Of a stretch of 64,000 bases of DNA, positions 4,590 to 63,827 are shown piece by piece (position 1 is the stretch's first letter; the number at the start of each line of letters is the position of its first letter). Location: NCBI GenBank assembly GCA_028689115.1, contig JAQTWV010000001.1, forward strand, positions 659,539-723,538, written 5' to 3'. Made by a program: the position numbers and the translations under genes. This DNA comes from Candidatus Altimarinota bacterium. Lineage in GTDB: Bacteria; Patescibacteriota; Gracilibacteria; BD1-5; UBA6164. A model generated the notes under the pieces. The model was not told where the DNA came from. It ran no database searches and was given only the letters and a program-made list of their open reading frames with translations.

Positions 4590-4745
4590 AATTAATATTA
4601 TTAATAATATTTAAATTATATATTTATATGATATAATAACAAATATTTAAAAATTCAAAAATAAAAAAATATAATATAATTGACTAAATAAATAATATTA
4701 TGATAAAATGATTAGTAGTTGTTTATTAATTATTTTATATAAAAA

Positions 4746-5558
4746 ATGAATTCTGAGCTTGCTAAACTTATATATGATTTAAAGTGAGATGAAAAATCTG
4801 CTTTTAATGTATATAATATAAGGAAAAAATTAACTGCTAGTTGATTTGAATATTATATCGCTTTTTATTTTGAGAAAATTTTATGATATAAAATAAAAAT
4901 AACAAATAATGTGTATAATGCTGATTGATGAATTGATTTAAAAGGCATTAGAAAAAATAAAGATTGAATTACAGAATACTGTATTATTCAATGTAAAAAA
5001 CATTCAAGCACAAGTTTTGGTATAAATTATATTAGAGAGTTTGTTGGAGCTATATATCATATACTTTTAAATTTTCCAGCAACAAAAGCATACTATATAA
5101 CTACTTCTGTTTTTAGTGAGCCAGCTATAAAATATGCTGAAAAAGAATGTATAAGTCTAAAAAATTATAAAAACATATTAAATATATATAATCAATATAG
5201 TTTAATTGATTTTGAAAAAGATATAATTGAGTTAATACCTGAAAAATACAACACTATATTTAATAAATGAAAAAAAATAAAAGAAAGTAAATGGCAATGA
5301 AAATTGTTTTATTCACAAGAAGATGAATTATTAACAACTTTAAAAGAAATTAGGTATAAGCTGATGAAAAAACTTCATATTATTGAAAAAAATGAAATCA
5401 CAAATGATAAAATACTAGAGTATCTATCAATAAAAAGACCTCATAATTTAGAAGCTTTGAAAAATAGTTTATATGAGTGAGAATTCAATAAAGAAGAAAT
5501 TTCTAAAACTATTAATTATGCTGATGAATATTTAAAATGAATTATTTTATATATTTAA
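4746..5558 (+). CDS. Mrr-like restriction endonuclease with C-terminal HRDC-like domain
   Basis: 270 residues. Residues about 25-110 match the Mrr catalytic fold (PD-(D/E)xK): YYIAFYFEKILGYKI, then NADGGIDLKGIR and IIQCKKHS, giving the D...QxK active-site pattern, followed by IREFVGAIYH. The C-terminus (LKEIRYKLMKKL ... LEYLSIKRPHNLEALKN) resembles an HRDC nucleic-acid-binding domain. Mrr enzymes cut methylated DNA, so this is a type IV restriction candidate. The essential DGG glycines are TGA. Just left of the proposed island boundary, with its own terminator. Confidence 0.85.
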
Positions 5559-5570
5559 AAGTTTAAAACT

Positions 5571-5608
5571 AAAAAAAGCATTAAATTCAGATGAATTAAT
5601 GCTTTTTT
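5571..5608 (+). terminator. Intrinsic terminator after Mrr-like gene
   Basis: Stem gcattaa...ttaatgc with inner attc/gaat pairing, flanked by A- and T-runs. Confidence 0.8.
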
Positions 5609-5872
5609 ATGTAAAAAATGTAATGGCAGCCCAATGAGTTTTTTAATCAAACACAAATTATGGAAGCCTTTGTTAAGAGAATGATGATAATTTATGATAG
5701 ATACAAACCCTTAATACATAAGATTGATTTTGCTGAACTATAAGATAACTAGGACTTTATATCTTACCCATTCAAGAGTAATATATATTATATATATGTA
5801 TATTATATAGAATAATTATATAACAAAAATAAAGAAAATTAAAATCATATTCCATTAAAAAACAAAGATATA

Positions 5873-5886
5873 GTAATTTAAATTAT
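5873..5886. promoter_or_regulatory. Candidate operator, copy 1
   Basis: GTAATTTAAATTAT, one mismatch from a perfect 14-bp palindrome. It repeats 89 bases downstream within a longer shared block (atagtaatttaaatta). Confidence 0.4.
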
Positions 5887-5961
5887 AAAAACAAATATAA
5901 AAAATTTAATATAGATTTAATATGGATTTAATATCTTTTATTTTATTAAAAAATGAATATA

Positions 5962-5975
5962 GTAATTTAAATTAC
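5962..5975. promoter_or_regulatory. Candidate operator, copy 2
   Basis: Perfect palindrome GTAATTTAAATTAC ending 16 bases before the ATG of the restriction gene. With copy 1 it suggests repressor control of the defence cassette; the repressor is not identified. Confidence 0.45.
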
Positions 5976-5991
5976 ATAGTAACTATTCATA

Positions 5992-8043
5992 ATGAAAGCT
6001 GAAGAAAAAAGATTTTTAAATTTCCTAGCAGGACATAATACAAATTTTGTAATTCCAGTATATCAAAGAAACTACGATTGGAAAAGAGAACAATGTAAAC
6101 AATTATATGATGATATAATACAAATAACAAAGGATAATTATAGAACTCACTTTATGTGAACAATAGTTGCATATGATGAAGACTGATATGGTTGAAGAGA
6201 GTTATTAATTATAGACTGACAACAAAGGCTTACTACCCTATCATTACTTTTATTAGCAATATATAAAGTATTAAATGATAATGATATAGAATCAAAAATA
6301 TCTAAAGATGAAATTTACGATGTTTTTCTAACTAATAAGTATTTAGATAAATCAAAGAAAATCAGATTAAAACCAGTTAAAGATGATAGAGAAGCTTTTA
6401 ACTCTATATTTGACTGAGAAAAAAAAGAAAATTCTAATGTAACTATAAACTATGAGTATTTTTATAATAGGATAAAAGAACAAGAGGTTTCAATTGATGA
6501 GTTATATAGAGCAATTGAACAGCTAATTATAGTTGAAATAATGTTAAGAAAAGGTGAAGATGATCCTCAATTAATATTTGAGAGTTTAAACTCTACATGA
6601 CTTGATTTAACAGAAGCTGACAAGGTTAGGAATTTTATTCTAATGAAAGAAAATACTGAGACTCAAGAAAGGCTATATAAAGACTACTGGTATAAGATTG
6701 AACAAAACACTAACTTTGATGTTAGTGCATTTCTTCGTGACTATATAACTTTAATTGAAAGAAGAATACCTAACAAAGCAAAGGTTTATATAATATTTAA
6801 AGAGTATATTCAAAAAAAGGAATTAGCAGTAGAACCATTATTAAATGAGTTACTAAAATTTTCATGATATTATAACAAAATAATAACTTCAAAAGATAAA
6901 AATAAAGATATCAGTAATGTACTAAGTAGAATTAATAAGTTAGAAACTATAGTAGCATATCCCTATTTATTAGAGTTATATGATAACTTAAATAATAATA
7001 TAATAAACAATGAAGAACTACTTCAAATACTATTAGTAATAGAGTCTTATGTATTTAGAAGATTTATTTGTGAAGTCCCTACTAATGCATTAAATAAAAC
7101 ATTTATGCTACTAGGTAAAGATATATCTTCCCATGAATGATACAAGGAAAACTATTTTAATATATTCAAATATGTATTAACTAATAAATCATGATCTCAA
7201 AGATTTCCAAATAATGAAGAGTTCGAAAATTCATTATTAACTAAAGATATATATAACACTCAAAGAAGAAATAAACTACATTTACTTGAGAGGTTAGAAA
7301 ACTTTGATCATAAAGAAAGTTATATAGACCAAGATTCTATATCTGAAAAAATAGATAATGGTAGCTTTACAATAGAACATATAATGCCTCAAACATTAAC
7401 TCCTGAATGGAGTAAGTCATTATGAATAAATGCTAAAGAAATACAAAAGAAGTACCTTCATACTATAGGAAATATAACTTTAACTTGATATAATAGTTCT
7501 ATGAGTAATAAGTCATTCCATGAAAAAAAGACTATGGAAAAATGATTTAATGATACTAAGTTATATCTTAATAAATATTTAACTACTATAGATAATTGGA
7601 ATGAAGAAACAATAAAGCATAGATTTGAATTATTAAAAGATAAGTCAATTTTAATTTGGCAATATCCATCTACAAACTATGAAGTAAAAAAGGATGACTC
7701 AAAAATATTTACATTATCAGATGAAGAAAACTTTACTTGAGAAACTATTCTAGAATATAGCTTTGAGGATAAGGATTATGAAGTAAACAGCTGGGCAGAT
7801 TTCTATTATGAAATAATAAAAATCTTATATAATAAAGATATTTTACTTATGAAATCGTTTATAAATGACGATTACCTATCTACTAAGTTTTACCCTACTA
7901 ATGTAGATTGAACTTATTCTAAAATAGAAGAATGATTATATTTAAAAGTTAATATGAATACTGAATCAAAACTATATGCTCTAAGAGAAATATTTAAAAG
8001 ATATGACATAAGTTTAGATGACTTATCATTTTATATAAAGTAA
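5992..8043 (+). CDS. GmrSD-like DUF262/HNH (DUF1524) restriction protein
   Basis: 683 residues. N-terminal DUF262: FVIPVYQRNYDWKREQC (about residues 18-34) and LLIIDGQQRLTTLSL (about 75-90), a nucleotide-binding ParB-like fold. Near residue 460 follows the HNH-type DUF1524 motif SFTIEHIMPQTLTPEW and then HTIGNITLTGYNSSMSNKSF. These proteins act as single-chain GmrSD-type enzymes that cut modified (for example glucosylated) phage DNA. A C-terminal segment of about 110 residues is of a type often appended in this family. Many glycines are TGA, including the first of DGQQR. First gene of a run of plus-strand defence genes. Confidence 0.9.
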
Positions 8044-8049
8044 TAAATT

Positions 8050-8937
8050 ATGTTTAAGAAAAAAGAAAATATAAAAGATACTTTCTTCTATGCTAATATA
8101 TTAATTAGTATATTTATAATAGTGCTTTTAATTTATATTATTAGTACTATTACTTTATTGTTTAAATACAATTGGTTAGAAGTAATAAATCTATTAAATA
8201 CATTATATTTTAATGAATCTATAAAGACATATTTGATAAATAATAAAGAAACCTTCTCTTGATTATTATTCATATATCTTATTTTTTTATGATATGTTTC
8301 TAAATCAAAAGGGTTAATATTCTATGATAATCAAAAACATTGAGTATATATCTATCCTATAATTACCATTCATAATTGATTATCTTTTTTATTACCAATA
8401 TATTTAATCTATATATTTTGAAATACATTAGAATTTATAGCTTTAATAATAGTTGCTATTTTATCAATAATTAATTTAGTAATTTTAAATTTATATATAA
8501 AAATTCGTTGAGATTATGAATGAATGAATAACTATATTCCAAATTGAAAAATAAATATAAATAAAATTATTCTTAATTTTGAAAGTTTAACAAGGTATGA
8601 ATTCTTTACATATATATTTTCAACATTATTATCACACTGAAAATATATTTTAGTAATAGCTTTCTTAATTTTTCCAATATGAATTATAAATGAATTTAAC
8701 TTAATAAGTATTTTATACATTCATCTAACTTTTGTATTAATTTATGTATCTATTAGTATTATGACTAATAAACTTTCTCCTATAATTAATATAAAATTTG
8801 ATTGAAAGGAAAAAAAGAATTTAATACTTGTAGACCAAGATGAAAAAAAATACATTTTGAAGTGAGAAAAAGAAACTTATATAGTTGATAAATCTAAAGT
8901 TGAATATATATTACAAAAAAATACTGATATAAAATAA
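8050..8937 (+). CDS. Multi-pass membrane protein, unknown
   Basis: 295 residues, starting 6 bases after the GmrSD-like stop and therefore probably co-transcribed. About six hydrophobic segments: residues 16-40, 73-83, 95-125, 130-160, 190-215 and 220-245. Then a short cytosolic tail with a small beta-rich stretch (NLILVDQDEKKYILK). No family recognised. Its position between two restriction systems suggests an accessory or membrane-sensing role, but this is only inference. Confidence 0.7.
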
Positions 8938-8947
8938 TAAATATTAA

Positions 8948-10783
8948 ATGACAACAGAAAACATTGAAAACTTAGAAGAAGTTAAAAAAGCATATTACAA
9001 AGTAAAAACTTCTACAGTTGAACATATGAAAGAATTACTTCATAATATAAAGTGAAGTAAACATGATGAGCTCCAATCAAAGATAAAGGAGCTTGAATCT
9101 GAGTTAGAGAATCTTAAAAATACAAAAAAATACTGACTTGTTTGGGATACAGAAAAAGAACCTGAACAAATTGTTTTAGATTGTCAAAATAAACTTCCAG
9201 TACTAGAAGAATTAAAAGATAGAAAGATTATCAATGATGATAGTGGTGATTCAAATATACTAATACAATGAGATAATTATCATGCATTACAAGTACTTAA
9301 TTATACACATAAAGAAGCTATAGATGTTATTTATATTGACCCTCCATATAACACATGAAATAAAGACTTTATATATAATGATAAATACATTGATAAAGAA
9401 GATACATATAGACATAGTAAACGGTTAAACTTCATGGATAAAAGATTAAGACTTGCTAATAATCTACTTAAAGAAGACTGAGTTATATTTATAAGTATTG
9501 ATGATAACGAACAAGCACAACTAAAACTACTTTGTGATGAAATTTTTTGAGAGGGAAATTTTATTGCAACATTACCTACGATTATGAATTTAAAATGAAA
9601 TAATGATCAATTTTGATTTGCATGAACACATGAATACACTTTAGTTTATATGAAAAATATTATTAAATGAAAAATAAATTATTTCAAGGTTAATGAAAAA
9701 TGATTAGATAAATGGGAAAATGATGAGATCTGATTATTTAAAAAATGAGCTAATTTAAAATCTACTTGAGTTAATGCACCTAGAAGCAAGAGGCCAAATT
9801 TATTTTTTCCAATATTTATAAATACTGATACAAAAACTGCTTATATTACAGATGATAATAAGCCTAAGTTACAGTCTGATATTATATTGCTTCCTATGAC
9901 TGATTGAAATGAAATGTCTTGGAGATGGAGTAAAACAAAAATTAATAATGAAAAACATAATATTATTCTAGTAGAAAATAAATGAAACTATAGTTTATAT
10001 AAAAAACAAAGACCTGAAGAATGAGAGATTGAACCATCATATAAGCCTAAAAGTTTTTTTTATAAAGCAGAATATAGTAGTTGAAATTGAACTGCACTAT
10101 TAAAAGATATTTTTTCTAATAAAGTTTTTAATAATCCAAAACCTTTAGACTTGATTAAAGATTTTTTAATTCTTTGAACAAAAAAAGATTCAATGATCCT
10201 TGATTTTATGGCATGATCTTGAACAACATGACATGCTGTATTAGATTTGAATAAAGAAGATTGAGGTAATAGAAAGTTTATACTTTGTACAAATAATGAG
10301 AATAATATTTGTGAAGATGTAACATATGAAAGAATTAAGAAAGTAAGTAATTGATATACTAATTCTAAATGAAAAGATATAGAGTGACTTGGATGAAATT
10401 TAAGATATTATAAAACTGCATTTGTTGATGTTGATAATTTAAAAGAAATTACAGACCAAAAGAAACTTGAGCTTACTTACAATGCTTGAGAATTACTTTG
10501 AATAAAAGAATGAATTTATAATGAATTAGAAAAAAATGAATACTGGCAAATCTTTGAATCAAACAAAGATATAGTTGCAATATATTTTAAAGAGAGTTCA
10601 AGAAAGATAGATGAGATGAAAAATAGATTAATTGAAATACAAAAACAAAAATGATGAAAAGTTAAATGGTATATCTATAATAATCCTTATGAAAAAACAA
10701 TGTTTAAGGATATAAAAAAACTTGAGTTAAAAGATATTCCAGATCCTATACTTAAAGTTTATAGAGAGATAAATAAGGTTTAG
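8948..10783 (+). CDS. mod: Type III restriction-modification DNA methyltransferase (Mod)
   Basis: 611 residues. N6-adenine methyltransferase subunit that also provides sequence recognition for the type III complex. Motif IV DPPYNTGNKDF lies near residue 130 and motif I FMAGSGTTGHAV near 419, the beta-class order, with the target-recognition domain between them. A coiled-coil-like segment (residues 35-65) precedes the catalytic part, as in other Mod proteins. Both motifs contain TGA glycines. Two unexpected genes separate it from res. Confidence 0.93.
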
Positions 10784-10799
10784 TTTTTAATTTAAAATT

Positions 10800-11618
10800 A
10801 TGTGAACTAAAATAGATAAGTATAAAAAAGATTTAGAAAAATTAATAGATGATTGAGAATATTTATTACATTCTATGAAAATGGAGTGTTTTCCTAAGGA
10901 ATATGAAGAAGCTATATCTAAATTACCAAAAGAGAAAAAGGAAGATTTTATTCAGAAATTATTAGATTTTAAATCAAATTATCAAATTTGGTACTCGGAA
11001 TCTTTAGTTTTAATAAAACAATTATTGCCAGATAGGATAAATGATTTTAACTCTTATTATAAAAAAGATTTAAGAAGAAAAGAAATAAATAATTCAAATT
11101 ATGTAATTGAAGATTATTTACAGTGAACACATATAACAAGGAGTTTTGATTCATCAACTGTAGCAGGACCTAGTTCAGCAATTCCTAAATTTGAACAACA
11201 AGTAAATATTATAAAATCTATAAAAAAAAGATTTGAAAGTTCGTTATTTGATATTAAACAATTATTACAAGCTGATCTATTTGATAATGAATTAGAATCT
11301 GCAAAAGAATTAAATAAAAAATGATTCGTAAGATGAGCATGAGCTATTGCATGAGTTGTACTAGAAGAACACTTTCAAAATATTTGTGATTCTCATAGTA
11401 TAAAAGTTCCAAAGAAAAATCCTTGAATAAATGATTTTAATGATTTATTAAAATCTGAGTGAATAATTGAAATTGATATGTTTAGATTTATTCAAAGATT
11501 AGGAGATTTAAGAAATAAATGTGATCATAAAAAAACAATTGAACCCTCAAAAGAAGAAATTGAAGAATTGATAAATTGAGTTGATAGAGTTATAAAAACT
11601 GTATTTAAATTAAATTAA
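10800..11618 (+). CDS. HEPN-motif protein inside the type III cassette
   Basis: 272 residues, starting 16 bases after mod. The N-terminal 150 residues are helical and charged, of unknown family. The C-terminal part (GAIAGVVLEEHFQNICDS ... FIQRLGDLRNKCDHKKTI) looks like a HEPN/DUF4145-type helical domain with an R-x4-H motif (RNKCDH) near residue 237, the pattern of HEPN ribonucleases. This suggests an RNase or a regulatory partner that acts when restriction fails. No direct evidence for activity; HEPN similarity is from motif and helix layout only. Confidence 0.65.
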
Positions 11619-11627
11619 TATAATATA

Positions 11628-12281
11628 ATGAATGAGATGTATAACATTATTAAAGATAATTTTTTCGGAATTATTTCTTTGCTTATCCAATGATTTATTG
11701 CATATCATATATTTTATTTATGAAAAAAATTATCTTTTAAGAATAAGTTAGAACACTCTGAATTGATAGAAGAACAGGTAATTAAACATTTATGAAAGAT
11801 TCATAATGAGTGAATTAGAAGAAAAGTATATCTAGTTAATGTTGACAACTATTATACTAAATATCCTGATAACTCGGAAAGTTTATTTTCTAATTATTCC
11901 CATATTAGAGCAGAACTTAAGTGATTAAGATTTGATTGAGTTGAATTTTTTGCTGAAATGCCAAAACTATTATATAAATGTAATTGAAAATTATATAAAA
12001 CAAAGAAAGATAATTGCTCAGAAACAATAAAAGTTTTTCCAATTTGAATAATTCCATATGAGAATATAGTTCATTTTAATTTAGATTGAGATGATTTTAA
12101 TACAAGTCCACTTATTTTTTGTAAGTTTAAATGAAAAGTGTGGTGGAGAAAAAGTTACCCATTTTTTTCAAGAGAACCATATTCAAGATTTGTTTACTAT
12201 AAAGAAAACTCAATGTATGATAAAAGTAGAGATCCATTTAGTTTTGAATATACTGAAATAACTGAAAAAATATATAAATAA
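11628..12281 (+). CDS. Membrane-anchored hypothetical protein
   Basis: 217 residues. One N-terminal hydrophobic helix (about residues 11-30) followed by a soluble domain with several tryptophan- and tyrosine-rich strands (KVWWRKSYPFFSREPYSRF). No family recognised. It is spaced 9 bases after the HEPN-motif gene and 11 bases before res, so it is part of the same transcription unit. It could couple the cassette to the membrane; this is inference. Confidence 0.65.
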
Positions 12282-12292
12282 AAAAATACATT

Positions 12293-14644
12293 ATGCACTT
12301 AAAAAAATTCCAAGAAGATACAATTGAAAAGCTTAGAAAAGCATTTTTAAACTTATGGCAATCAGATAAAAGATGATTACCACTTGTTTTGAAAGCTCCA
12401 ACTTGATCTTGAAAAACTATAATGACAGCTGAGTTTTTAAGACAGCTTGTAAATGATCCACAGTTTCAAGAAAAGAAAGCTTATGTTTGGATTACATTTA
12501 GTGAAGAACTTTATAGTCAAAGTAAAAAGAAACTATTCTCATATTATGATTGAGCAAGTGAAATAAATTTACTTGATTTAAATGATCTCTCAAAAAAGAG
12601 AATGAAAGAAAACAATATATTCTTTATTAACTGGCAAAAAGTTAAGGCATCAAATAAAGATTGAAGAAAGCTTAGAAAAGAAACTGAATATAGTATTTGA
12701 GATAAATGAATATTTGATGAGTTTATAATTAATACTCAAAAAGATTGAATAGAACTCGTATTAATAATTGATGAAGCACATACACAAGTTTGAACAAGTT
12801 TAGCTGATGAGATAGTAGATTTAATAAATCCTAAAATTATATTTAAAATTACAGCTACTCCAAAAAGTGAAGATGTTTCAGAAGCTATTGAGTATGATAG
12901 TTTAGTTAATGTTAAACAAGATGATGTTATCAGAGAGTGACTTATAAAAGAAAAAATACTTACTCAGACAAAAGAAGATATTGAAGCTATAAAAGAAACT
13001 GAAATTGATCAAGATAAATTTTTAATAGAACTAGCATATAATAAAAGAGAAGAATTAAAAAAATATTATGAGGAATTAGATTTAGATATAAACCCTCTAG
13101 TATTAATACAATTACCAAATGATGATAAGAAAGAAGATGAAGCTTTAAGTAAATCTAAATTAGAATTTATCATATCTTACTTAATTGAAAGATGAGTTAA
13201 AAAACAACAAGTAGCAATATGGTTAAGTGAGAAAAAAGAAAATTTAGAATTAATTGAAAAAAATAATTCTCCTAAAAATTTTTTAATATTCAAACAAGCC
13301 GCAGCAACTGGTTGGGATTGTCCTAGAGCATGAGTATTAGTTATGTTTAGAGAAATAAAAAATCCAAGTTTCCATATTCAAACTGTATGAAGAATTTTGA
13401 GAATGCCTTTAGGATTTCATTTTGATATACCAGAATTAAATAGATGATACCTATATACAAATTATAATAGAAATGATGTTTTAAAAGACTTTGAAAAGGT
13501 CTTATGAAATAATAAGCCCTTTGTATACCAAAGTAAATTAAAAGATAATATAACTCCAATAACACTTGATTCTATTTATCTTTGAAGAACTGATTACAAT
13601 GACTTAAGTCCTACATTTGAAAATACATTATTTGAAACACTTAATAATTATTTTTGAATAAATACAAATTCACTAATAAATCAAACAGAAAATTTTAATA
13701 AACTTTTAAGTAAATGAATAAATGTAAATGCTGATAAGATTACTAACTCAATGATAGCTGATGTTGAGATACTACATTTTGATCATTTCTTAGATGATTT
13801 AAAAAATAACTGAGTTGATATAAATGCTTCTATATCATTATGAGATTTAGAAAGATTATATGATTTAACCATTTATAATTTTATTACTTCTCAAGAAATA
13901 GAAGCTAGAAAATATGCACCTGCAAGAAGTTGGAAAGCATTTAGAAACTCTATTAATAGTTGGTTCCTAGACTATATAACTAATGAAAGACCTATATTTA
14001 AAGCTATAATAATAAATGATTTTCAAAAAGAAGATTCTGTTTTAAGAAACATCTGTTCAAAAGCACTTGAGAATTATAAACCTATTAGACTTGCAGAAGT
14101 AAAAGAAAAAGAAAAAAGATCTGAGGATAAAATTAGTTTAAGTATACCTAGGAATGAAATATTTTATACTAGTGATTATAATTTATTCTCTGATTTTGAA
14201 ATCAATAAAAGTGCATTATTTCCATTTTATTTAAAACCAAATTATAGTTGAAGAGTTAATGAAGTTTGATTTATAAAATACTTAGAAGAAAATAATAAAA
14301 TAGATTGGTGGTATAAAAACTGAGATAGTTGAAGAGAATTTTTTGCAATAAAATACTTTGATACTTTTAAACAAAATGATAGTTTATTTTATCCTGATTG
14401 GATTGTAAAACTAAATGATTGAAGAATATTAATTGTTGATACAAAAGATTGAAATACAGCTATTTCACAAGATACAAAAGATAAAGCAGAAGAATTACAA
14501 AAATGGATTAAATCACAAAAATGATTTAGTATTGTTTGATGAATAGTATTAAATGTATGATGAGAATGGAAAGTAAATAATAAAGAAGTTTATAATATAG
14601 ATAAAGATTATAAAGATTTTATTAGTTTATCAGATGTAATATAA
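12293..14644 (+). CDS. res: Type III restriction enzyme Res subunit
   Basis: 783 residues. ATP-dependent helicase/nuclease subunit that cuts DNA together with Mod. Walker A APTGSGKT near residue 35 (both glycines TGA), DEAH near 158, TATPKSE motif III, and a C-terminal helicase block ATGWDCPRAG ... HIQTVGRILRMP. The C-terminus has a PD-(D/E)xK nuclease: FYPDGIVKL and RILIVDTKDG near residue 700. The protein is intact and a little shorter than P1/EcoP15I Res. This gene gives the clearest proof of UGA as glycine in the window. Confidence 0.95.
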
Positions 14645-14723
14645 TTGTTTGAAATTAAAATAAGTATTATTACTTTAATAAATTAGATATAAAGATTAAT
14701 AAAATATAAAATTATTTTCTATT

Positions 14724-15632
14724 ATGAAAAATGAAGTTGAAATAAATATATGATGAACACTACAACAGAATGATTGTTTTAAATGAATTAATCAAATAAA
14801 TAATGCTTTTTTATTATCTAAAAAAGATATCTTTTATTATGATATAATTAACATAAAATCTGATTCAATATTTTTTCCTAGTAATGTTTTAGTAATTTTA
14901 TGATATCACCTCGATAATCTTCAATTAAAATGAAAAGATATAAAAAATAAATTAACTTCAAAAGTATATAATTTTTTATTAAGAAGTTGATATTTAGAAT
15001 ATATTGATAGTAATTTAGGTTCTTGAACAAGATTATTAAATTCAGTTATTTTTCCTTTTTCAAAAATAAGTTCTCAAAAGGATTTAAAAGATTACTTAGA
15101 TAAATACAAATGAAGAATTAAAAATGAAGAATCTAGAAATTTAATATCATCATATATATCTGAATTACATTATAATTCTATAGAACATTGATGAACTCAA
15201 GATATATATATAATGTGACAATTACATCCTAATTTAGAAAATACAGATATTACAATTTATGATGCATGATCTTGAATGATAAAAGATGATGTAAGTAGTG
15301 TAATTAATGATGTATATAAGAATTATTCTACTGAAGATTTTTATGATGAAATTAAAAATAAGTATTGACTAAATGTTTTTTTAATTATACTTTGTGTATG
15401 CACCCAATTTTCTTCAAAATGATTAAATGAATGATGATTGTGACTATGGGAACTTTCATCATATTTACTTAAACATAATTGAAAAATTCAAATAGTAACG
15501 GATAAGATATATATAGAATTGCAGTTTTTAAAAATATGTGATAAAATTGATAAAGATTCTATTATAATAACTGTAAAAGAATTAGATAATAAAATAATTT
15601 GAACATTTATATCTTTTACTTATTCAATATAA
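14724..15632 (+). CDS. GHKL-type ATPase, first gene of a three-gene operon
   Basis: 302 residues. The second half has a histidine-kinase-like ATPase fold: N-box LHYNSIEHGG near residue 148, DAGSGM (DxGxG box) near 180 and a GGLGLWELSS lid near 237; the glycines are mostly TGA. There is no phospho-acceptor histidine domain or membrane segment, so it is not an ordinary sensor kinase; SpoIIAB-like or MutL/Hsp90-like switching is more likely. The N-terminal 140 residues (FFPSNVLVILGYHLDNLQ) are unassigned. Next gene starts 4 bases later. Confidence 0.75.
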
Positions 15633-15636
15633 AAAT

Positions 15637-15945
15637 ATGGAAAATATAAAAATATACGATTTTACAAAAAGCGATATAGCTATTGATATTAATGAAGCAA
15701 AAATAATATCTAAAACAATTATACAAAGATATAATTCTTCTCACTCTAAAATTATAATTGATTTTTCAAATATAACTATATCAATATCTCCATTCATGAG
15801 AACACTATTAAGACCATTAATAACTAATAGTGTAGATTTTGAATGAATTAATTTCTGAAACACAAAAACTAAAGATACATATCAAAGAATATTAGAGCAA
15901 TTTGAAATAATAGGAACAGAAAATATTATTGAATTAAATAATTAA
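15637..15945 (+). CDS. STAS-like (DUF4325-type) protein
   Basis: 102 residues. Pattern IAIDINEAKIISKTII ... KIIIDFSNITISISPFMRTLLRPL matches STAS-like DUF4325 proteins, relatives of anti-sigma-factor antagonists, which are commonly encoded beside GHKL ATPases. In SpoIIAA the residue after the ISPSF-type loop is phosphorylated by its kinase partner; here the loop reads SISPFMRTL. Likely binding partner or substrate of the preceding ATPase. Overlap-free, one base before the PIN gene. Confidence 0.7.
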
Positions 15946-15946
15946 T

Positions 15947-16591
15947 ATGAGTATAGGTAAAAATTTACTTGATATTGAAAGAAGTATATATTTAGATACT
16001 TCTTTTATTTTGAATTCATTGTATGAATCAATAGATTCAAATAAATGAATAGTTAACAATTCTATTAAAGCATTATGATTATTACTATCAAGAGCTGAAC
16101 CAAATTGTTATATTTCTAATATAACATTAAATGAATTATTTAATGTTATTGAAAGATCATGATTTAGATCATATGTAGATAAAAAAATTATTCAAGAATT
16201 GAAAATAAATGAATCTATGTGGAAATCATATTCTATTGATAACAGGAAATCCTTAAGAAATGAATATGATAAGACTATATGATTAAATATAAAAGATATA
16301 AAAAATTGGAGAAATAATAATGAATTTAAATTAGATTATAAAGCATATGTATTAGATGAGTTTTTAAATATATTAGATTCACTACCAAATGAAATAAAGA
16401 TTATTTCAAATTTTATTAATCCAGAATTATATAAAAATGATTTTATAAAAACAAAAAAGAAATACTTTATGTTAGATTCAAATGATGTAAATCATTATCT
16501 TTTATGTAAAAGTAATTCCATAGATTGTTTATTAACAAATGATTCAGATTTTAAAGAAATAGATGATTTAAAAATATTACACATAAATTAA
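15947..16591 (+). CDS. PIN-domain nuclease
   Basis: 214 residues. PIN fold with the acidic metal-binding residues in order: SIYLDTSFILNSL (first Asp, about residue 15), TLNELFNVIE (Glu, about 62), a YFMLDSNDVNHYLL helix (about 178-191) and CLLTNDSDFKEI (terminal Asp pair, about 197-206). PIN proteins are usually RNases and typical toxins of VapBC modules. It is larger than a VapC toxin (about 130 aa), with a helical insert in the middle. No VapB-like antitoxin is present; the two upstream genes are the natural candidates for control. Confidence 0.8.
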
Positions 16592-16594
16592 ACC

Positions 16595-16623
16595 AGACTA
16601 CAATAATATGTAGTCTTTTTTTA
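16595..16623 (+). terminator. Intrinsic terminator after PIN gene
   Basis: Stem agactaca / tgtagtct followed by seven T. Closes the GHKL-STAS-PIN operon. Confidence 0.85.
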
Positions 16624-16698
16624 TTAGCCATATTTTAAAACATAAATTATTCTTTTAGTAATTAATTATTACTAACTTTATTTTTTAAATGTTTTTGT

Positions 16699-17532
16699 AT
16701 GAAAGCAAATGAAATACTAGTTAATCAAATAATAGATAAACTAGAACAATGATTTATCCCCTGGAAACAACCTTGGGTAAATACAATAGCTTGCAATTAT
16801 GTAAGTAACAAACCATATAGAGGTTTCAATAAATTAGTACTCTCATTCAATGAGTTTGAAGATAATAGATATTTAACTATTAAACAAATTAAAAAATTAT
16901 GATGATGAGTAAAAAAGTGAAGTAAGTGAACTAAGATATACTTTTTCAAATATAATAATGAATCAAATGAAGATAATGAAAAAGAAGTATTATATAGCTT
17001 CCCTATTATTAGATACTATACTGTATTTAATATAGAACAAACATATTGAATTAATAGGCAAACAAATATTGTAACTGATACTAGAACAAGTCTATTTAAA
17101 GCTCAAAATATAATCACAAACTATAAAGATAAACCTGTGATTAAAAATTGATCAAATGCATCTTATAATTTAATAGATGATGTAATAACAATTCCTAGTT
17201 TAAATAAGTTTAAAAGTAATGAAGAATATTTCAGTACATTATTTCATGAATTAATACATTCAACCTGAAATAAAAAAAGACTAGCTAGATTTTGAGTAAA
17301 TAATTTTGAATACTTCTGAAGTGAGAACTATTCAAAAGAAGAACTAATAGCTGAGTTATGAAGTATGTTCTTATGTATGGAGGCTTGAATAATTAATCAT
17401 ACAGAAAACAATTCTAAAAATTACATTGCATGATGGCTAAACTATATTAAGTGAAATAAAAATCATTTAATATTAGCATCAAATTTTGCAGATAGAGCTA
17501 CTGATTATATATTATGATGTAATCATAGCTAA
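16699..17532 (+). CDS. ardC: ArdC-like antirestriction protein
   Basis: 277 residues. N-terminal ssDNA-binding domain (IIDKLEQGFIPWKQPW ... NKPYRGFNKLVL, residues 10-55) and C-terminal zincin-like domain with HELIHSTGNKKRL (HExxH near residue 186) and the downstream glutamate in EELIAELGSMFL. ArdC proteins come from conjugative plasmids and phages and protect incoming DNA against restriction, which fits the mobile-element context. Flanked by its own terminator. Confidence 0.88.
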
Positions 17533-17545
17533 ATTAAAATTAAAT

Positions 17546-17576
17546 CTCTATAAAGTGAAATTTATAGGGGTTTTAT
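17546..17576 (+). terminator. Intrinsic terminator after ardC
   Basis: Stem ctctataaa / tttataggg (one G-U pair) and a short T-run. Confidence 0.65.
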
Positions 17577-17603
17577 ATATTATATAAATTAACAATACTA
17601 ACT

Positions 17604-18281
17604 ATGAAAAATACTGAAATAATAAACCAAGATAAATTAAATTTAAATAATACTGAAGTATCAAACTTAAAATTATCTATAAGTGAATTAAATAATATAA
17701 AAGATAAACTATTAGATTCAAGTGACATATATAATATCAAATGAATTAAATATATAAACAAAAAAGGCTATAGAAAAATAGCTTTAGCATTTAATATATC
17801 TACTCAAATAATTAATGAGAAAAGAATATTAGATTGAGATAATCTAATATATGATTTCACAGTAAGAGCAAGTACTCCAATGTGAAGATACACTGAAGCT
17901 TCTTCTAGTTGTTCTAGTAATGAAAGAGATTTTACTCATTTAAATCATGATGTAAGAGCGACTGCTCAAACTAGAGCAACTAATAGAGCTATATCTGATT
18001 TACTATGAATTACTGATATCATATATTATATTTCATGAATAATTAATAGTAATGTAAATACTGAAAATAACTATGATAATTGACCTGTAGATAGTGATAA
18101 TAATATAGATACTCACAATATTACCTTAAAGCAAAGAAAACTCTTAGAGAGCTTAATAACTGAAGTTATTGAAAATGAAGATGAGCAAAAAGCATATATT
18201 GAAACACTAGATGAATTATCAAAATATGAAGCTAATTTTCATATAAGAGAATTACTTGATATGAAGAATGGGACTAATTAG
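17604..18281 (+). CDS. Conserved plasmid/virus-type protein, possible recombination mediator
   Basis: 225 residues. The core (GYRKIALAFNISTQII ... YDFTVRASTPMGRYTE ... HDVRATAQTRATNRAISDLL) resembles a family found on plasmids, archaeal viruses and integrative elements; the ATAQTRATNRAISDL helix is like that of ERF/Rad52-type single-strand annealing proteins. I infer DNA recombination or replication, but the function is not established. The N-terminal 50 and C-terminal 70 residues are low-complexity or acidic. Followed by a large hairpin. Confidence 0.55.
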
Positions 18282-18362
18282 TAGTCTATGTATAAATATA
18301 TATCAACTAATAACTGAATAAAAAATAGTTGATTTATATATTAAAAATGTTATATTTGAAAA

Positions 18363-18470
18363 GCCAAAAATATCTTAAATAAACTGACATTTGTCATTAG
18401 GAAAGGGTAACTTAGTTACTCGTCCTTTCTTACTTGTTGATAAATGACAGTTTGCAAAGATATTTTTGGC
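18363..18470. repeat. Large nested hairpin
   Basis: Outer 14-bp perfect arms (gccaaaaatatctt at 18363-18376, complement at 18457-18470), then AAACTG/CAGTTT (18381-86 / 18448-53), TGTCATT/AATGACA, GAAAGG/CCTTTC, and a gtaactTagttac tip. Symmetry continues over about 108 bases without a T-run, so it is more than a terminator. Candidate origin, transfer or recombination site of the element, or a structured RNA. Confidence 0.7.
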
Positions 18471-18479
18471 GAAATATAG

Positions 18480-18507
18480 AGTACTAAGTTATCCTTTTTT
18501 TAGTACT
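18480..18507. repeat. Second small hairpin next to the large one
   Basis: Stem AGTACTAA / TTAGTACT with a loop containing seven T, 9 bases after the large hairpin. It may be a terminator on either strand or part of the same structured site. Confidence 0.5.
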
Positions 18508-18572
18508 TAAAAAACATAAAAAAGGAAAAAATAAATAAGTCTCTCCCATTTTTAATTTTTAAAATATTTCTC

Positions 18573-19598
18573 ATGAGAAAAATAACATTTAATATACTAT
18601 TTTTTTGAATAGTTGTACCATCAAAAATTATAGATATATATTTAATATATCCAGAAAAATTTACAATGTTTTTTTCAGATCCTATAAAAAATATAATTTA
18701 TAATATAGATAATATAATTCAATTTGCAACATTATGATATTCTCCAGCTATATCTCTTATTATTCTTATTATTATTTCACTATTTAGATTTAAATCTATT
18801 TGAATGTCAAAATGGTATTCATTAACATTATGGATACCATTATGGAATATTTATATAATATATAAATTAATTAGTAGTAATATAATAATTAAAAATGAAA
18901 ATCAGATACCACCAATTAATAACATAGAAAACAATACAGAATTAAAAAATAAATCAAATGATAATAATTTAAATGATAATAATTTTGTTTATTATCTTAT
19001 AGATAATATTCATATTATTGCTACATGAATAATACTTACTATTATAATTATTACATCTATATTATTCTCTAATGATAATTTGAATTTAAATTCAAATTCA
19101 TATGATGAAGAAAAAATAAATACAATCATTGAAAATTCAAATAATACAATTAGTGAAATCAATAACTACATAAATATAATATGTGAAAAATGATTTTATA
19201 AAATATGAAATGATTGTAAATCATATGATGATTATGATAAAAACATAATATATATTGATAAACAAAAATTATTGATGTGGCAAGTTATACCAGAAATATC
19301 AAATTCATGACGGGATGAAGCTAATAAAATAGCTAATAACAGTAATTTATTATGATATAGTGATTGGAGACTACCTTCTAGTAATGAAATTCATAGTTTA
19401 TATAACTGTTCTTCAAATTATAAATGTTCTCCAAAAAATGTAATAAATAATAAATATATATGATATTGGACAAGTAGTGATACATCTTATGAATTTTATT
19501 GATACAATTGAAAAATGTATTTTAAATCAGATGAATGAATATTTCCAGGGATGGAAATGTATTCAAAATGATGAGTTCGTTTAGTAAGAGATCTATAA
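18573..19598 (+). CDS. Membrane-anchored DUF1566-domain protein
   Basis: 341 residues. Four hydrophobic segments in the first 165 residues, a linker rich in Asn/Ser, then a C-terminal DUF1566 (Lcl C-terminal) domain from about residue 245: LLGYSDWRLPSSNEIHSL, the cysteines CSSNYKC, YIGYWTSSDTSYEFYG and a final GGVRLVRDL. These domains are extracellular and ligand- or surface-binding in other bacteria. The last 46 codons lie in the first copy of a 171-bp tandem duplication. Confidence 0.75.
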
Positions 19599-19802
19599 TT
19601 ATAAAACCTATGAAAAAATATATAAAATATATGATATTGGACAAGTAGTGATACATCTTATGAATTTTATTGATACAATTGAAAAATGTATTTTAAATCA
19701 GATGAATGAATATTTCCAGGGATGGAAATGTATTCAAAATGATGAGTTCGTTTAGTAAGAGATCTATAATTATAAAACCTATGAAAAAATATATAAAATA
19801 TA
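19461..19802 (+). repeat. 171-bp direct tandem duplication (two copies)
   Basis: Bases 19461-19631 and 19632-19802 are nearly identical. The unit contains the 3' end of the DUF1566 gene and the first codons of the next gene. The ends share a short AT-rich similarity (aaatatatatg-atattgg and aaaatatatg-ttattgg), as expected for microhomology-driven duplication. The second copy of the DUF1566 tail is untranslated. Confidence 0.9.
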
Positions 19803-20365
19803 TGTTATTGGTACTTATATCATTAACATCTACATACCAAATAGCTTCTGCATATATTGTAAAAAATAGTTGATTATCATCAAGTGAATTAATTTTTACT
19901 TCTATTTTTGCAATAATTGTATGATTTATATTAATAAAAGCAGGAGAATTACTTCTAAGAAAAATAAAAAACAATAATGGTTGATTTAAAGATATAGCCT
20001 GATTTATACATAAAATATGAATATTTCTTATATGATCTGGCTGAATAACTTTATTAATAAATTTACCTATTTATCTATCATCAAGTAATGATGATAAAAT
20101 TTTATATCAAAATAACTCATTAGATAATAGACTTAATCTATTAAATAATATAGATAAAACATCATCTGATATAGATAACAATTGTACATTCAATTGAAAG
20201 TTATATAGAAAACCGATAAATGCTCATTGCCTAGAAAATGATAAATATAATGCATGGTTATGTGATAACTGATATTATGAAGCTTCCTGAGATTGAGAGG
20301 CTAAATGACAGCAAGTATGTGTAAATAAAATTACTAATGAATATATGTATTATCAAAATAATTAA
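19781..20365 (+). CDS. Hypothetical membrane protein with cysteine-rich tail
   Basis: 194 residues. N-terminal signal-like helix (YMLLVLISLTSTYQIASA), further membrane segments at about 36-55 and 75-100, then an outer domain with four to five cysteines (NCTFNGKLY, AHCLEN, WLCDNGYYEA, QQVCVN) that may form disulfides. Its start ATG is duplicated upstream at 19610, but that copy reaches a stop after a few codons. Unknown family; probably exported cargo of the element. Confidence 0.6.
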
Positions 20366-20933
20366 AAAAATACTACTATATAAAAATTTGATTTTTACTA
20401 AAAAAAACATACAATAATAACATATATTCACTATATAATAAATATCTAATTTTTATATACTTAAATATGTAATCATAAGAACAATTCTATTATAGAATAA
20501 ACACTATATAAAGGATTACATAAACCTGCCCCAAAACCCACACTATAATGTGAAAAAAAAGGTATTTTTCTAAACATGAAAAATACCTTTTTTTTATAGC
20601 TCATTTAACATATATACTACCTAGTTATATACTAACTAATATATAGTACATATATATAGAGTTATACATTAAACAATATAATATATAATAGAGTATTACA
20701 TCTTGTATAAAAAAAAATATAATTATACTAATGTAAACTAACTGATATACTGGTAGTTTACATATAGTTAAATTAAAATGAGTAGTAACTTAAAATAAAA
20801 ATTTTAAGTTGAAAATAATGATAATAGTAGAAGTAGCAGTAGAAGCAGTAGTGGTAGGGCTATATGGACCCCAGTAGTAGTGTAGTAGTAGGGTAGCATT
20901 ATTTTAAATTTTTAGTTTATAAAAGTGAAACTT
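20366..20933. other. Long intergenic region with hairpins and a GTA-periodic tract
   Basis: No convincing gene. It holds a terminator-like hairpin (20553-20595), an imperfect palindrome gtaaacta...tagtttac (about 20734-20762), and from 20818 a tract of GTA/GCA/GAA triplets that would encode a 19-residue peptide rich in Val and Ala. It may be the leader or iteron region of the winged-helix gene that follows. Confidence 0.5.
20553..20595 (+). terminator. Intrinsic terminator without an obvious upstream gene
   Basis: Stem aaggtatttttc / gaaaaatacctt with a following T-run. It lies about 190 bases after the last ORF, so it may end a non-coding transcript. Confidence 0.7.
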
Positions 20934-21926
20934 ATGATTTATGATATAAAAAATATTAATAAAGAATTAATAAGTTTATTAATTCAAGAAACTAAAGATA
21001 TTAAAGATAATCATATATCATCAAAAATTGAAATTCCATTTCCAAATGTTAAAGATATAAAAAACATAGAATGATTCATAGATCTATCTATGTTTAAAAT
21101 AAATGATTCATTGTCATCAATAGAAGTCAGTAAAAATCAACTAATGTATTTACATGAATTTATAATAGAAAATGATTTAAAATTGATAAAATTTACTAAA
21201 GATTTTATTGAATGTATTCCTAGTAAAGACCTTTATAATTCATTACACAATATTAATGAATTTATAGAGTACGAATATCAATGAAAAATTAATATTAAGA
21301 ACTTAACTATTCCATTGTATGCTTTATTTAAAATAAATATAAATAATAAATTTACATTAAATAATATCCTTATTTGATATGATTCATATAAATTAGATCA
21401 TGATATTATTTGATATGATTCATCTAGATTAGATGATAAAATTGATATAGAAATATTAAATTATAAGCCTAATCTTCTAACATTATTACATTGTAATATA
21501 ATTAGTGAATGCAATAAAAATATGTTAGAAAAATATAATAATCTACTCCTTATAAACAAAACATTTATTAATGAATCATTTACTTATAATTGAATATTAG
21601 AAGACTATATAATATCATTAGAAAATGATTTAAAATTAAATGTTAATATTACTATATATAATAGTATTATTAAAGATAATTGAAAAATAATACTAAAGCT
21701 AACAAAATGAGAATATAAAATAATTAATGAATTAAAATTACATATTAGTAAATGATGAATTTCTGTAAACACATTAATAAAAATAACTAATCAAACAGAA
21801 GGTGGAATAAAAAAAATGATTAGAAGACTAAATAATAAGATAAAAGAAATAGGTTATATAAAATATATATATATTATTTATGAAAGATGAACTAAAAATT
21901 ATAAACTAATTATAAACAAAAAATAA
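20934..21926 (+). CDS. Winged-helix DNA-binding protein, possible element regulator or initiator
   Basis: 330 residues. N-terminal 250 residues of unknown fold, with a small internal repeat (IGYDSYKLDHDIIGYDSSRLDD). The C-terminal 75 residues resemble an OmpR/PhoB-type winged helix: LTKGEYKIINELKLH, KGGISVNTLIKI, GIKKMIRRLNNKIKEIG, and YERGTKNYKLI as the wing. No receiver domain. The position after a repeat-rich leader and before the recombinase suggests a regulator or replication initiator of the element. Confidence 0.55.
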
Positions 21927-21998
21927 AAAAAGTAGTACAAATACTTTTTAGTAATAGTACTACTATAAAGAGATTAAACTACGATTAAATAGTACAAA

Positions 21999-22031
21999 AA
22001 ATAACTTATGTGCTATTTTTTTATTGCATAG
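21999..22031 (+). terminator. Probable intrinsic terminator
   Basis: Stem aatagtac / gtgctatt (one G-U pair) with a following T-run, downstream of the winged-helix gene. Confidence 0.55.
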
Positions 22032-22065
22032 ATAATACTATATAGATGCGCGATTTTAAATAGTT

Positions 22066-22085
22066 ACATACCGGTATGTTATAAT
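22066..22085 (+). promoter_or_regulatory. Operator palindrome overlapping an extended -10 promoter
   Basis: ACATACCGGTATGT (22066-22079) is a perfect palindrome. Its right half supplies the TG of an extended -10 element, TGTTATAAT (22077-22085), 11 bases before the ATG of the small gene. A protein bound here would block transcription of the small gene and perhaps the recombinase. Confidence 0.6.
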
Positions 22086-22095
22086 ATATAATATT

Positions 22096-22242
22096 ATGAC
22101 AGATGAAAAAATAGATGAGAAATTAATCCATCTAAAAAATTATAATGTTGATGACTCTACAAAGAGAATTCTAATAAGAAACCTATACAAATTAGCTAAC
22201 CAAAATTTTAATACTTATATAGAAAAATTTGAAAAAGATTAA
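22096..22242 (+). CDS. Small hypothetical protein, 48 aa
   Basis: MTDEKIDEKLIHLKNYNVDD..., predicted to be two helices with a basic middle (STKRILIRNLYKLANQ). No TGA codon inside. It sits directly behind an operator-like palindrome and an extended -10, and 50 bases before the recombinase. Such small proteins often control excision, but no helix-turn-helix is clear. Confidence 0.5.
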   Translation: MTDEKIDEKLIHLKNYNVDDSTKRILIRNLYKLANQNFNTYIEKFEKD

Positions 22243-22292
22243 AATAGTTATAGATTAAAGAAAATTGAATTTTAATATTTAAGATATTTATT

Positions 22293-24002
22293 ATGCCAAA
22301 TGCAATAATATATTGTAGAGTATCTACTAATAAACAAGAAAAAAATTGAGACAGCCTAGAAAATCAAGAAAGAGCTTGTAGAAACTATTGTAAGAATAAT
22401 TCTATAAATGTATTGTGAGTTTTCAAAGAAGCTTTTACATGAAAAGATCAGAATAGACCAATACTTAATGAGTCGATTCTAAATGCAATAGAAAATAAAG
22501 TAGATTATTATATTGTATTTGACATAGATAGATTATCAAGAGAATGATTTTCAGTATATTCAGATATTAAAAATCACTTACAAGCTAATTGAATAACTCT
22601 AAAAGATAGTAAAAATATTATATGAGATAGTAATCTTGTAGTTACAAATGATAAAGTTGATATGAGTAAATATAAATGGAATAGAGAAAATAGAAGTGAA
22701 ATGGCAGAAATGGTATATTCAGCTCAAGCAAAGATAGAGTGAGATAAAATTATTCAAAGAACAATTCCAAGAGAAATAGAACTAGAACAACAATGATATC
22801 AAGTAAGATGACCTAATTATTGATATACTAATAAGAAAATAAAAACATCAAATTGAAAAGCATCAATACAAATTAAAAATTGAACTGAATGAGATTGGGT
22901 TATATATATGTTTGAATCTAGAGCAAAATGATTATTAAGTGATAAAGAAATAGTAGAACAAGTTAATCTTAAGTGATGTATAAAAAGAAGAGTTAACAAA
23001 CCTATGGATATAAAATATATGCAAGAGCTAATTAAGAAACCTATATATGCTGGTATTAATACATCAAAATGGACTTGAAACACCCCCATTAAAACAGCTT
23101 ATGAATGACTTGTAAGTATTGATACTTGGAATAAAGCAAATAAAGGTAAGATACAAATAATTGAAATAGACAATACAAATGTAAATATTTTATATAAAAA
23201 CGATAAAAGTAAAATAGAGGATACAATAGAAGTGAAAGAAAAGAGAAAAGATTATAACAGTGAATATCCATATTCAAAAGTATTAATGTGCCCAGAATGT
23301 AAATGAACACTAACATGAAATAATGCTAAATCTAGAAGTGGTACAATACATCATTACTATCAATGTACATGAAAAAAAGGAGTTAAACATAAAAACTACT
23401 CTTTAAAACAAAAAGAAGTAAATGATTCCATTATGAGTATATTCACTTCAATTAATATAAACAATGACATATTAAAACTATTTGAAGATATTTCAGAAGA
23501 AGTATATATAGATAGAAAAGATGAATTGATAAATAATAAAGAATTATATTCAGAAAGAATTAAATGATTAAAAAAATTAAAAGAAGCTAAGCTACAAAAA
23601 TTAGATAATGTAATAAACTTCCCTATACTACTTGAATCATTAAACAATGAATTAGAAGATATACAGAATCAAATAATAGATTTAGAACATAAGCTTAATA
23701 ATATCAAAGAGGACATAAATATAGGCACATTTAAATCATACTCTATAAACCTTATCAAACACATAGATAAAATAGTACAACAAAAGGAAAAACCAGATAT
23801 GATAAGCCTTGCATTTGAGATAATGTTTAACGAAAGAATAGTGTTTGAAAAATTAGATTATCAAACCACAAACAATAAAGGTTTATTATGAATACAAAGC
23901 CAACAAAAAAACCCATCCGAGGATGAGTTTTCTTTAAATACTGTATGGCAGTCCCACTTGGAATCGAACCAAGCACGCAGGATTTGGAGTCCTGCATTAT
24001 AA
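22293..24002 (+). CDS. Large serine recombinase (integrase)
   Basis: 569 residues as an open frame. Resolvase domain AIIYCRVSTNKQEKNGD (catalytic Ser about residue 10), DIDRLSREGFSVYSDI, then the recombinase domain, a zinc ribbon CPECKGTLTG ... YYQC (about 330-355), and a long coiled coil (about 410-490). It integrates or excises DNA at short core sites. The frame runs on through a terminator and the whole antisense tRNA-Trp, ending with TAA at 24000. The last 20 or so residues are thus translated tRNA complement and probably replaced the original C-terminus on integration. Confidence 0.92.
23906..23934 (-). terminator. Intrinsic terminator of tRNA-Trp
   Basis: On the minus strand a stem aaaactcatcc / ggatgggtttt followed by T. 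It lies 12 bases after the tRNA, inside the end of the recombinase frame. Confidence 0.8.
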
Positions 24003-24020
24003 CCGCTTAACTATGGGACT
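23946..24020 (-). tRNA. tRNA-Trp(CCA)
   Basis: 75 bases with encoded CCA. Acceptor AGUCCCA/UGGGACU, discriminator G, anticodon stem around loop CUCCAAA giving anticodon CCA, and a T-arm with UUCGAUU. This anticodon reads UGG only, which agrees with UGA being taken by another tRNA. It is likely the insertion target of the mobile element. Confidence 0.95.
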
Positions 24021-63748: not shown

Positions 63749-63827
63749 TGGAGCGGGGGACGAGGTTTGAACTCGCACACCCAAGGGTTGAAGCCTTAGT
63801 ACACTCACTCTTTTATGTTACCCCCGC
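63749..63827 (-). tRNA. tRNA-Gly(UCA), reads UGA
   Basis: 79 bases with encoded CCA. Acceptor GCGGGGG/CCCCCGC with discriminator U, as in bacterial tRNA-Gly; anticodon stem UAAGG/CCUUG around loop CUUCAAC, giving anticodon UCA; variable loop of 5 bases; T-arm GCGAG/CUCGU. The short variable arm and 7-bp acceptor exclude selenocysteine tRNA. This is the adaptor that turns UGA into glycine. Confidence 0.9.

Follow-up and report, generated by a model that had tools for sequence, protein, structure and literature searches.

A very probable divergent member of the VapKSC toxin–antitoxin family on a strain-specific defence island of a Gracilibacterium

Three adjacent genes in the stretch of Gracilibacteria DNA analysed here (64 000 nt of a Candidatus Altimarinota bacterium, hereafter the window) very probably form a vapKSC operon, encoding a divergent member of a three-part toxin–antitoxin/abortive-infection module. 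The VapKSC system itself is already known from a publication of June 2026 (PMC13373217; Chambers et al. 2026, EMBO J) that includes a solved VapS2VapC2 crystal structure (VapS–VapC structure 9Z7O). An earlier note had proposed an undescribed system at this locus, a claim that falls with this publication and with the matches of window-protein profiles to 9Z7O; the window operon is a divergent member of the known system. What looks new, judging from sequence, is the occurrence of vapKSC in Patescibacteria, on a defence island, with a larger VapC and an apparently much shorter VapS inhibitory tail. The kinase-controlled toxin–antitoxin system is thereby extended to recoded Patescibacteria, phages and a plasmid.

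When TGA was read as glycine (translation table 25), three clean ORFs were obtained with gaps of 4 bases (vapK–vapS) and 1 base (vapS–vapC), recovering the exact coordinates of the operon proposed earlier (Table 1); under table 11, stop codons break up the region 14724–16591. There are 20 in-frame TGA codons in vapK, representing 20 of its 21 glycine codons. The private terminator previously ascribed to the operon was also recovered, with an 8-bp stem and a T run; it was the sole such locus in the region (two strand calls compared with 0.1 expected) and had a fold z-score of −4.8. The promoter scan gave 27 sites compared with 32.6 expected from shuffles and, as there was no excess, no promoter was assigned. 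The operon does lie between type III restriction–modification (R-M) genes and ArdC, as had been stated. The 79 bases that separate type III res from vapK contain no terminator-like site, and read-through from the R-M genes into vapKSC may therefore occur. No VapB ORF was present beside vapC at the locus, the neighbours being the STAS gene and ArdC, in agreement with the earlier reading.

Table 1. Features of the vapKSC-like operon and its surroundings (positions are those of the window)
Feature	Position	Strand	Basis
vapK-like gene, STAS-like N-terminal half and C-terminal GHKL ATPase/kinase, 302 aa	14724..15632	+	ORF, homologues, motifs
vapS-like gene, predicted STAS antitoxin, 102 aa	15637..15945	+	ORF, homologues, 9z7o profile match
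VapS Ser51 codon, aligned with Escherichia VapS phospho-acceptor Ser48 (ISPF / ASPF)	15787..15789	+	alignment; PMC13373217
vapC-like gene, predicted PIN nuclease toxin, 214 aa	15947..16591	+	ORF, Pfam, 9z7o profile match
VapC Asp17 codon, aligned with Escherichia VapC catalytic Asp28	15995..15997	+	alignment
Intrinsic terminator of operon, AGACTACAATAATATGTAGTCT then T7	16595..16616	+	terminator scan, fold z-score
Type III R-M mod, upstream	8948..10783		
Type III R-M res, upstream	12293..14644		
ArdC, downstream	16699..17532		Pfam ArdcN 1e-25
Strain-specific island with operon, beside tRNA-Trp (23946..24020)	4609..23944	.	homology to empty sites

Searches with single sequences placed a PIN domain on the vapC product above the Pfam cut-off (E=5.5e-8), whilst HATPase_c on the vapK product (E=7e-4) and the STAS-like DUF4325 on the vapS product (E=3e-3) scored below theirs; the two weak calls were secured by homologues, through the annotation of a Deinococcus relative and a STAS profile match. 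This STAS profile (A7) matched ‘Escherichia VapS’ of PDB 9z7o at 8.1e-16, and the PIN profile (A8) picked out the ‘Escherichia VapC’ chain of that entry (4.7e-10), its next best match being at 0.28. The comparison covers VapS and VapC, published VapK being without a PDB chain. The three-row STAS profile of the window family itself also had 9z7o VapS as its top match, at a modest 0.0096, and the single Deinococcus VapC and VapS sequences matched 9z7o at 9.6e-9 and 3.8e-9, respectively. A three-row PIN profile restricted to Gracilibacteria did not reach 9z7o VapC, and the window is thus connected to the solved pair via intermediate relatives. None of the three proteins received a name from PADLOC or NCBIfam.

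The window operon shares with VapKSC the K–S–C gene order, a STAS–GHKL kinase, a STAS antitoxin and a PIN toxin, together with the VapS phospho-site (S/T followed by P/A-F), the catalytic Asp and a site among defence genes. It differs in that its host reads TGA as glycine, Gracilibacteria being absent from the main text of PMC13373217, and in the sizes of VapC and the VapS tail considered below. The acidic residues of the PIN protein, singled out earlier for checking, were invariant in all seven members (D17, E63, D180, D199 and D201). In the vapK product, the N-terminal half is similar to the STAS-like half found in other such kinases, and the C-terminal half carries an N box (E147/N151/H155), a G1 motif (D180-x-G182-x-G184) and a G2 motif (G237-G238-x-G240-L241). 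E147, N151, D180, G182, G184 and G240 were invariant in all seven members, with G238 and L241 likewise listed among the motifs invariant in the seven relatives. VapK F50 is a candidate ssDNA-stacking aromatic residue, invariant in the Gracilibacteria copies and replaced by W in three other members, where a one-residue alignment gap makes the register of window F50 with VapK F54 or CapK W68 uncertain. The AlphaFold model of VapK had a pLDDT of 38.

The alignment column of Escherichia VapS S48 was occupied by Ser or Thr in all seven members as well as in Escherichia VapS, the window residue being Ser51. Assuming that the crystallised protein has an 18-residue tag in front of it (134-residue chain compared with 116-residue protein), S48 would correspond to residue 66 of the 9z7o chain. 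The idea that the phospho-acceptor had been lost from PIN-linked STAS proteins, which carry P/A at a position that is Ser in other DUF4325 proteins, was rejected because Escherichia VapS shares ASPF and its published S48 is the Ser preceding P. The AlphaFold model of VapS was mediocre (pLDDT 67) and gave no significant Foldseek match among structures to April 2026, a set that may lack 9Z7O; the STAS proteins RsbS and TM1442 were among its insignificant matches.

Escherichia VapC is toxic and loses its toxicity in the D28A mutant; VapS alone neutralises it, and VapS, not VapK, is the protein that binds VapC (PMC13373217). Both neutralisation and VapC binding are lost in VapS S48E, and the VapS tail (residues 94–116), whose C-terminal helix reaches the VapC active site, is needed (PMC13373217). 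Protection against phage Bas42 is about 2-log and requires VapC D28, VapS S48 and VapK F54; phosphorylation of VapS by VapK, probably triggered by ssDNA, was proposed to free VapC, the trigger being modelled rather than measured (PMC13373217). By analogy, in the resting Gracilibacterium cell VapS would bind VapC and hold the toxin inactive. VapK, a STAS–GHKL kinase of the SpoIIAB/CapK type, would sense damage, for which the trigger in the published system is probably single-stranded DNA arising from DNA damage or phage infection. It would then phosphorylate VapS at the conserved Ser/Thr (here Ser51), breaking the VapS–VapC complex, and the freed VapC, as a PIN RNase, would cut RNA and stop growth. 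It is from this homology that we infer toxicity, an RNA target, an ssDNA trigger and phage defence for the present organism. The earlier suggestion of an ATPase/STAS switch acting on a PIN RNase was right in outline, being of the SpoIIAB/SpoIIAA type, but the arrangement is not new, since it is that of VapKSC; the defence or toxin role suggested with it appears to be borne out by VapKSC homology and the published phage-protection data (PMC13373217). Like VapBC, the operon encodes a VapC-type toxin with a PIN RNase domain, but it lacks VapB, and its predicted antitoxin is a STAS protein that would release the toxin on phosphorylation.

Co-conservation of the three genes had been put forward as a check on the operon, and the same genes, in the same order and tightly spaced, were found in six other genomes or elements. 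Three were other Gracilibacteria (L095/G558, L096/G510 and L109/G564), and the operon was found beyond the phylum on Deinococcus gobiensis plasmid P5, where it is annotated ATP-binding, STAS-like and PIN, in Streptococcus phage Javan172 and in faecal phage MT837343. Identity of G558 and G510 to the window was 40–49 % for the ATPase, 43–52 % for STAS and 47–51 % for PIN, and that of G564 was about 28–34 %; intergenic spacing ranged across members from 27 bases apart to a 38-base overlap. G558 was found via the PIN protein, G510 via the ATPase and G564 via an ATPase profile. Kinase baits, either the gene or profiles, recovered five of the six relatives, and every one of the five had a PIN gene, so the link to PIN is not a search artefact. 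When the ATPase and PIN proteins of the window were searched singly against plasmids, phages and viral contigs, no match was obtained, partly because the patterns do not expect TGA for glycine, and profile and whole-genome searches were needed. Weak genome matches to the window ATPase at L004 and L005 were inspected and rejected as chance. The vapC-like PIN ORF of Javan172 (L117:4089–4619) is unannotated, has a TTG start and shares its first 17 bases with the end of vapS.

The window operon belongs to a strain-specific island of 19.3 kb, because two same-genus genomes carry the empty site, with the flanks joined at tRNA-Trp; the limits given in Table 1 are those of homology to these sites, and one of the two genomes also lacks the flanking GNAT gene. 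The island contains Mrr, GmrSD, the type III R-M genes, vapKSC and ArdC, with a serine recombinase at its end. An att repeat was looked for at tRNA-Trp and was not found. TGA specifies most glycines in the island genes and is rare in the adjoining EF-Ts, S2 and S1 genes. Inspection by eye revealed a C5 DNA methyltransferase, a Z1-type protein and type III R-M beside the G510 operon, type I R-M beside that of G564, and a serine recombinase and an ArdC remnant beside that of G558, so that R-M genes adjoin the operon in three of the four Gracilibacteria. The Javan172 operon adjoins a recombinase and sits between a repressor/ImmA-like pair and an integrase. Absence of the island from sister genomes and the recombinases next to the operon in G558 and Javan172 would fit an addiction role, in which a working VapKSC keeps a mobile island in the population rather than stopping phages. 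This role on its own is judged unlikely in view of the R-M neighbours and of the published survey of 289 vapKSC operons, 36 % of which have other immune genes within 10 kb and one of which was phage-protective (PMC13373217). The two roles are, in any case, compatible.

The PIN protein had been described in the earlier note as large, and this was confirmed by comparison: VapC has 214–224 aa in the Gracilibacteria (214 aa in the window) compared with 176–188 aa in the other members found. The window VapS ends about seven residues after the last helix of the STAS fold and has only seven residues beyond the column of Escherichia residue 93; past this column the Gracilibacteria have 6–13 residues, the other members 17–23 and Escherichia 23 (94–116). 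The tail is not, however, among the features stated as necessary for the family. These differences in tail and VapC size are facts of length and alignment. They suggest, tentatively and with the balance somewhat against it, that the Gracilibacteria branch could be a mechanistic variant of VapKSC in which the antitoxin tail has been mostly lost and the toxin enlarged by about 30–40 residues between its second and third catalytic acids. Inhibition would then depend either solely on the STAS domain or on an insert with which VapC blocks itself. The combination of short antitoxin tail and enlarged toxin offers a concrete test of VapS inhibition of VapC.

A shortened VapS tail would also leave room for another inhibitor and, the fold pair being the same as in SpoIIAB/SpoIIAA, the GHKL protein might itself sequester the PIN protein until freed by the STAS protein, as in a direct partner switch of the sigma-F kind. 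This is improbable, as in the solved homologue it is VapS, not VapK, that binds VapC, and VapS alone suffices for neutralisation. The VapKSC assignment retains the likeness to SpoIIAB/SpoIIAA and RsbT/RsbS, namely a GHKL kinase with a STAS substrate and a partner switch on phosphorylation, but the partner is a nuclease toxin and not a sigma factor or phosphatase.

A DUF4325 match was present in 60 of the 288 genomes of the class, in which GHKL+DUF4325 pairs without PIN are common, and many PIN-less GHKL+STAS pairs adjoin other genes. The genome of the window (G000:C3) has a second GHKL+DUF4325 pair of this type (L086:462–1647), with a KilA/BRO-like protein next to it. As CapKS regulates adjacent immune operons (PMC13373217), such pairs could point to a CapK/CapS-type transcriptional switch, with the STAS protein acting as a DNA-binding repressor and PIN being merely a neighbouring gene under regulation. 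An HTH is present at the N terminus of CapK and a wHTH at the C terminus of CapS (PMC13373217), whereas the window kinase begins directly at its STAS-like half, the STAS protein extends only about seven residues past its last helix, and no HTH family match was obtained for either protein at E≤5 in the family search. The PIN gene, moreover, is in the operon at a distance of 1 base, and the PIN-linked pairs are distinct: their seven kinases grouped as one clade in a 43-kinase tree (97/99 support, 98 % of bootstrap trees). No PIN gene was found near 38 other GHKL+STAS pairs, within 3.5 kb of the non-PIN pairs scanned, and a PIN profile run over 46 collected pairs detected PIN in psiM100 and the PIN-linked set but in no other pair. 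The STAS proteins divide in the same way, the PIN-linked ones reading S/T-P/A-F (the MT837343 motif was read separately) and the PIN-less ones having Ser directly before an aromatic residue (38 of 38). The PIN-linked kinase–STAS pairs found here are therefore one lineage, told from PIN-less pairs by a simple mark, and a purely transcriptional switch is very improbable. What VapKSC has in common with CapK/CapS is a STAS–GHKL kinase acting on a STAS partner, the output here being an in-operon toxin instead of transcription. Chance adjacency of three genes without functional unity, for which the ATPase and STAS scores below Pfam cut-offs might be cited, has practically no likelihood and is refuted by the retention of order, spacing and all key residues across seven genomes, which span several phyla as well as phages and are only roughly 12–52 % identical.

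Other kinase–STAS pairs were associated with different third genes. In the Methanothermobacter prophage psiM100 (L115:2809–5430, insert IFa), a GHKL+STAS pair that falls outside the VapKSC clade precedes a gene for a 492-aa protein, which begins with a PIN domain and continues, by eye, with GNAT-like and ASCH/EVE-like parts. The record annotates the fragment that carries these genes as an insertion. This archaeal virus thus seems to have a second kind of PIN effector, a fused one, attached to a kinase–STAS pair. At L062:4375–6367 and L075:4403–6341, a longer GHKL protein with a basic N terminus and a STAS protein are followed by an overlapping gene whose product (177–192 aa) has two hydrophobic segments near its N terminus and could be a membrane effector occupying the position of the third gene. 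A PIN-less GHKL+STAS pair was also located just after the lysin gene in a Streptococcus agalactiae plasmid/prophage record (L114:4578–5767) and in phages H8–H14, the post-lysin site being a usual place for cargo genes in streptococcal prophages. Finally, ARAGORN called a tRNA-SeC with anticodon tca at positions 63749–63827 (−) of the window; because the organism reads TGA as glycine, this is more likely the tRNA-Gly(UCA) responsible for decoding the reassigned codon.
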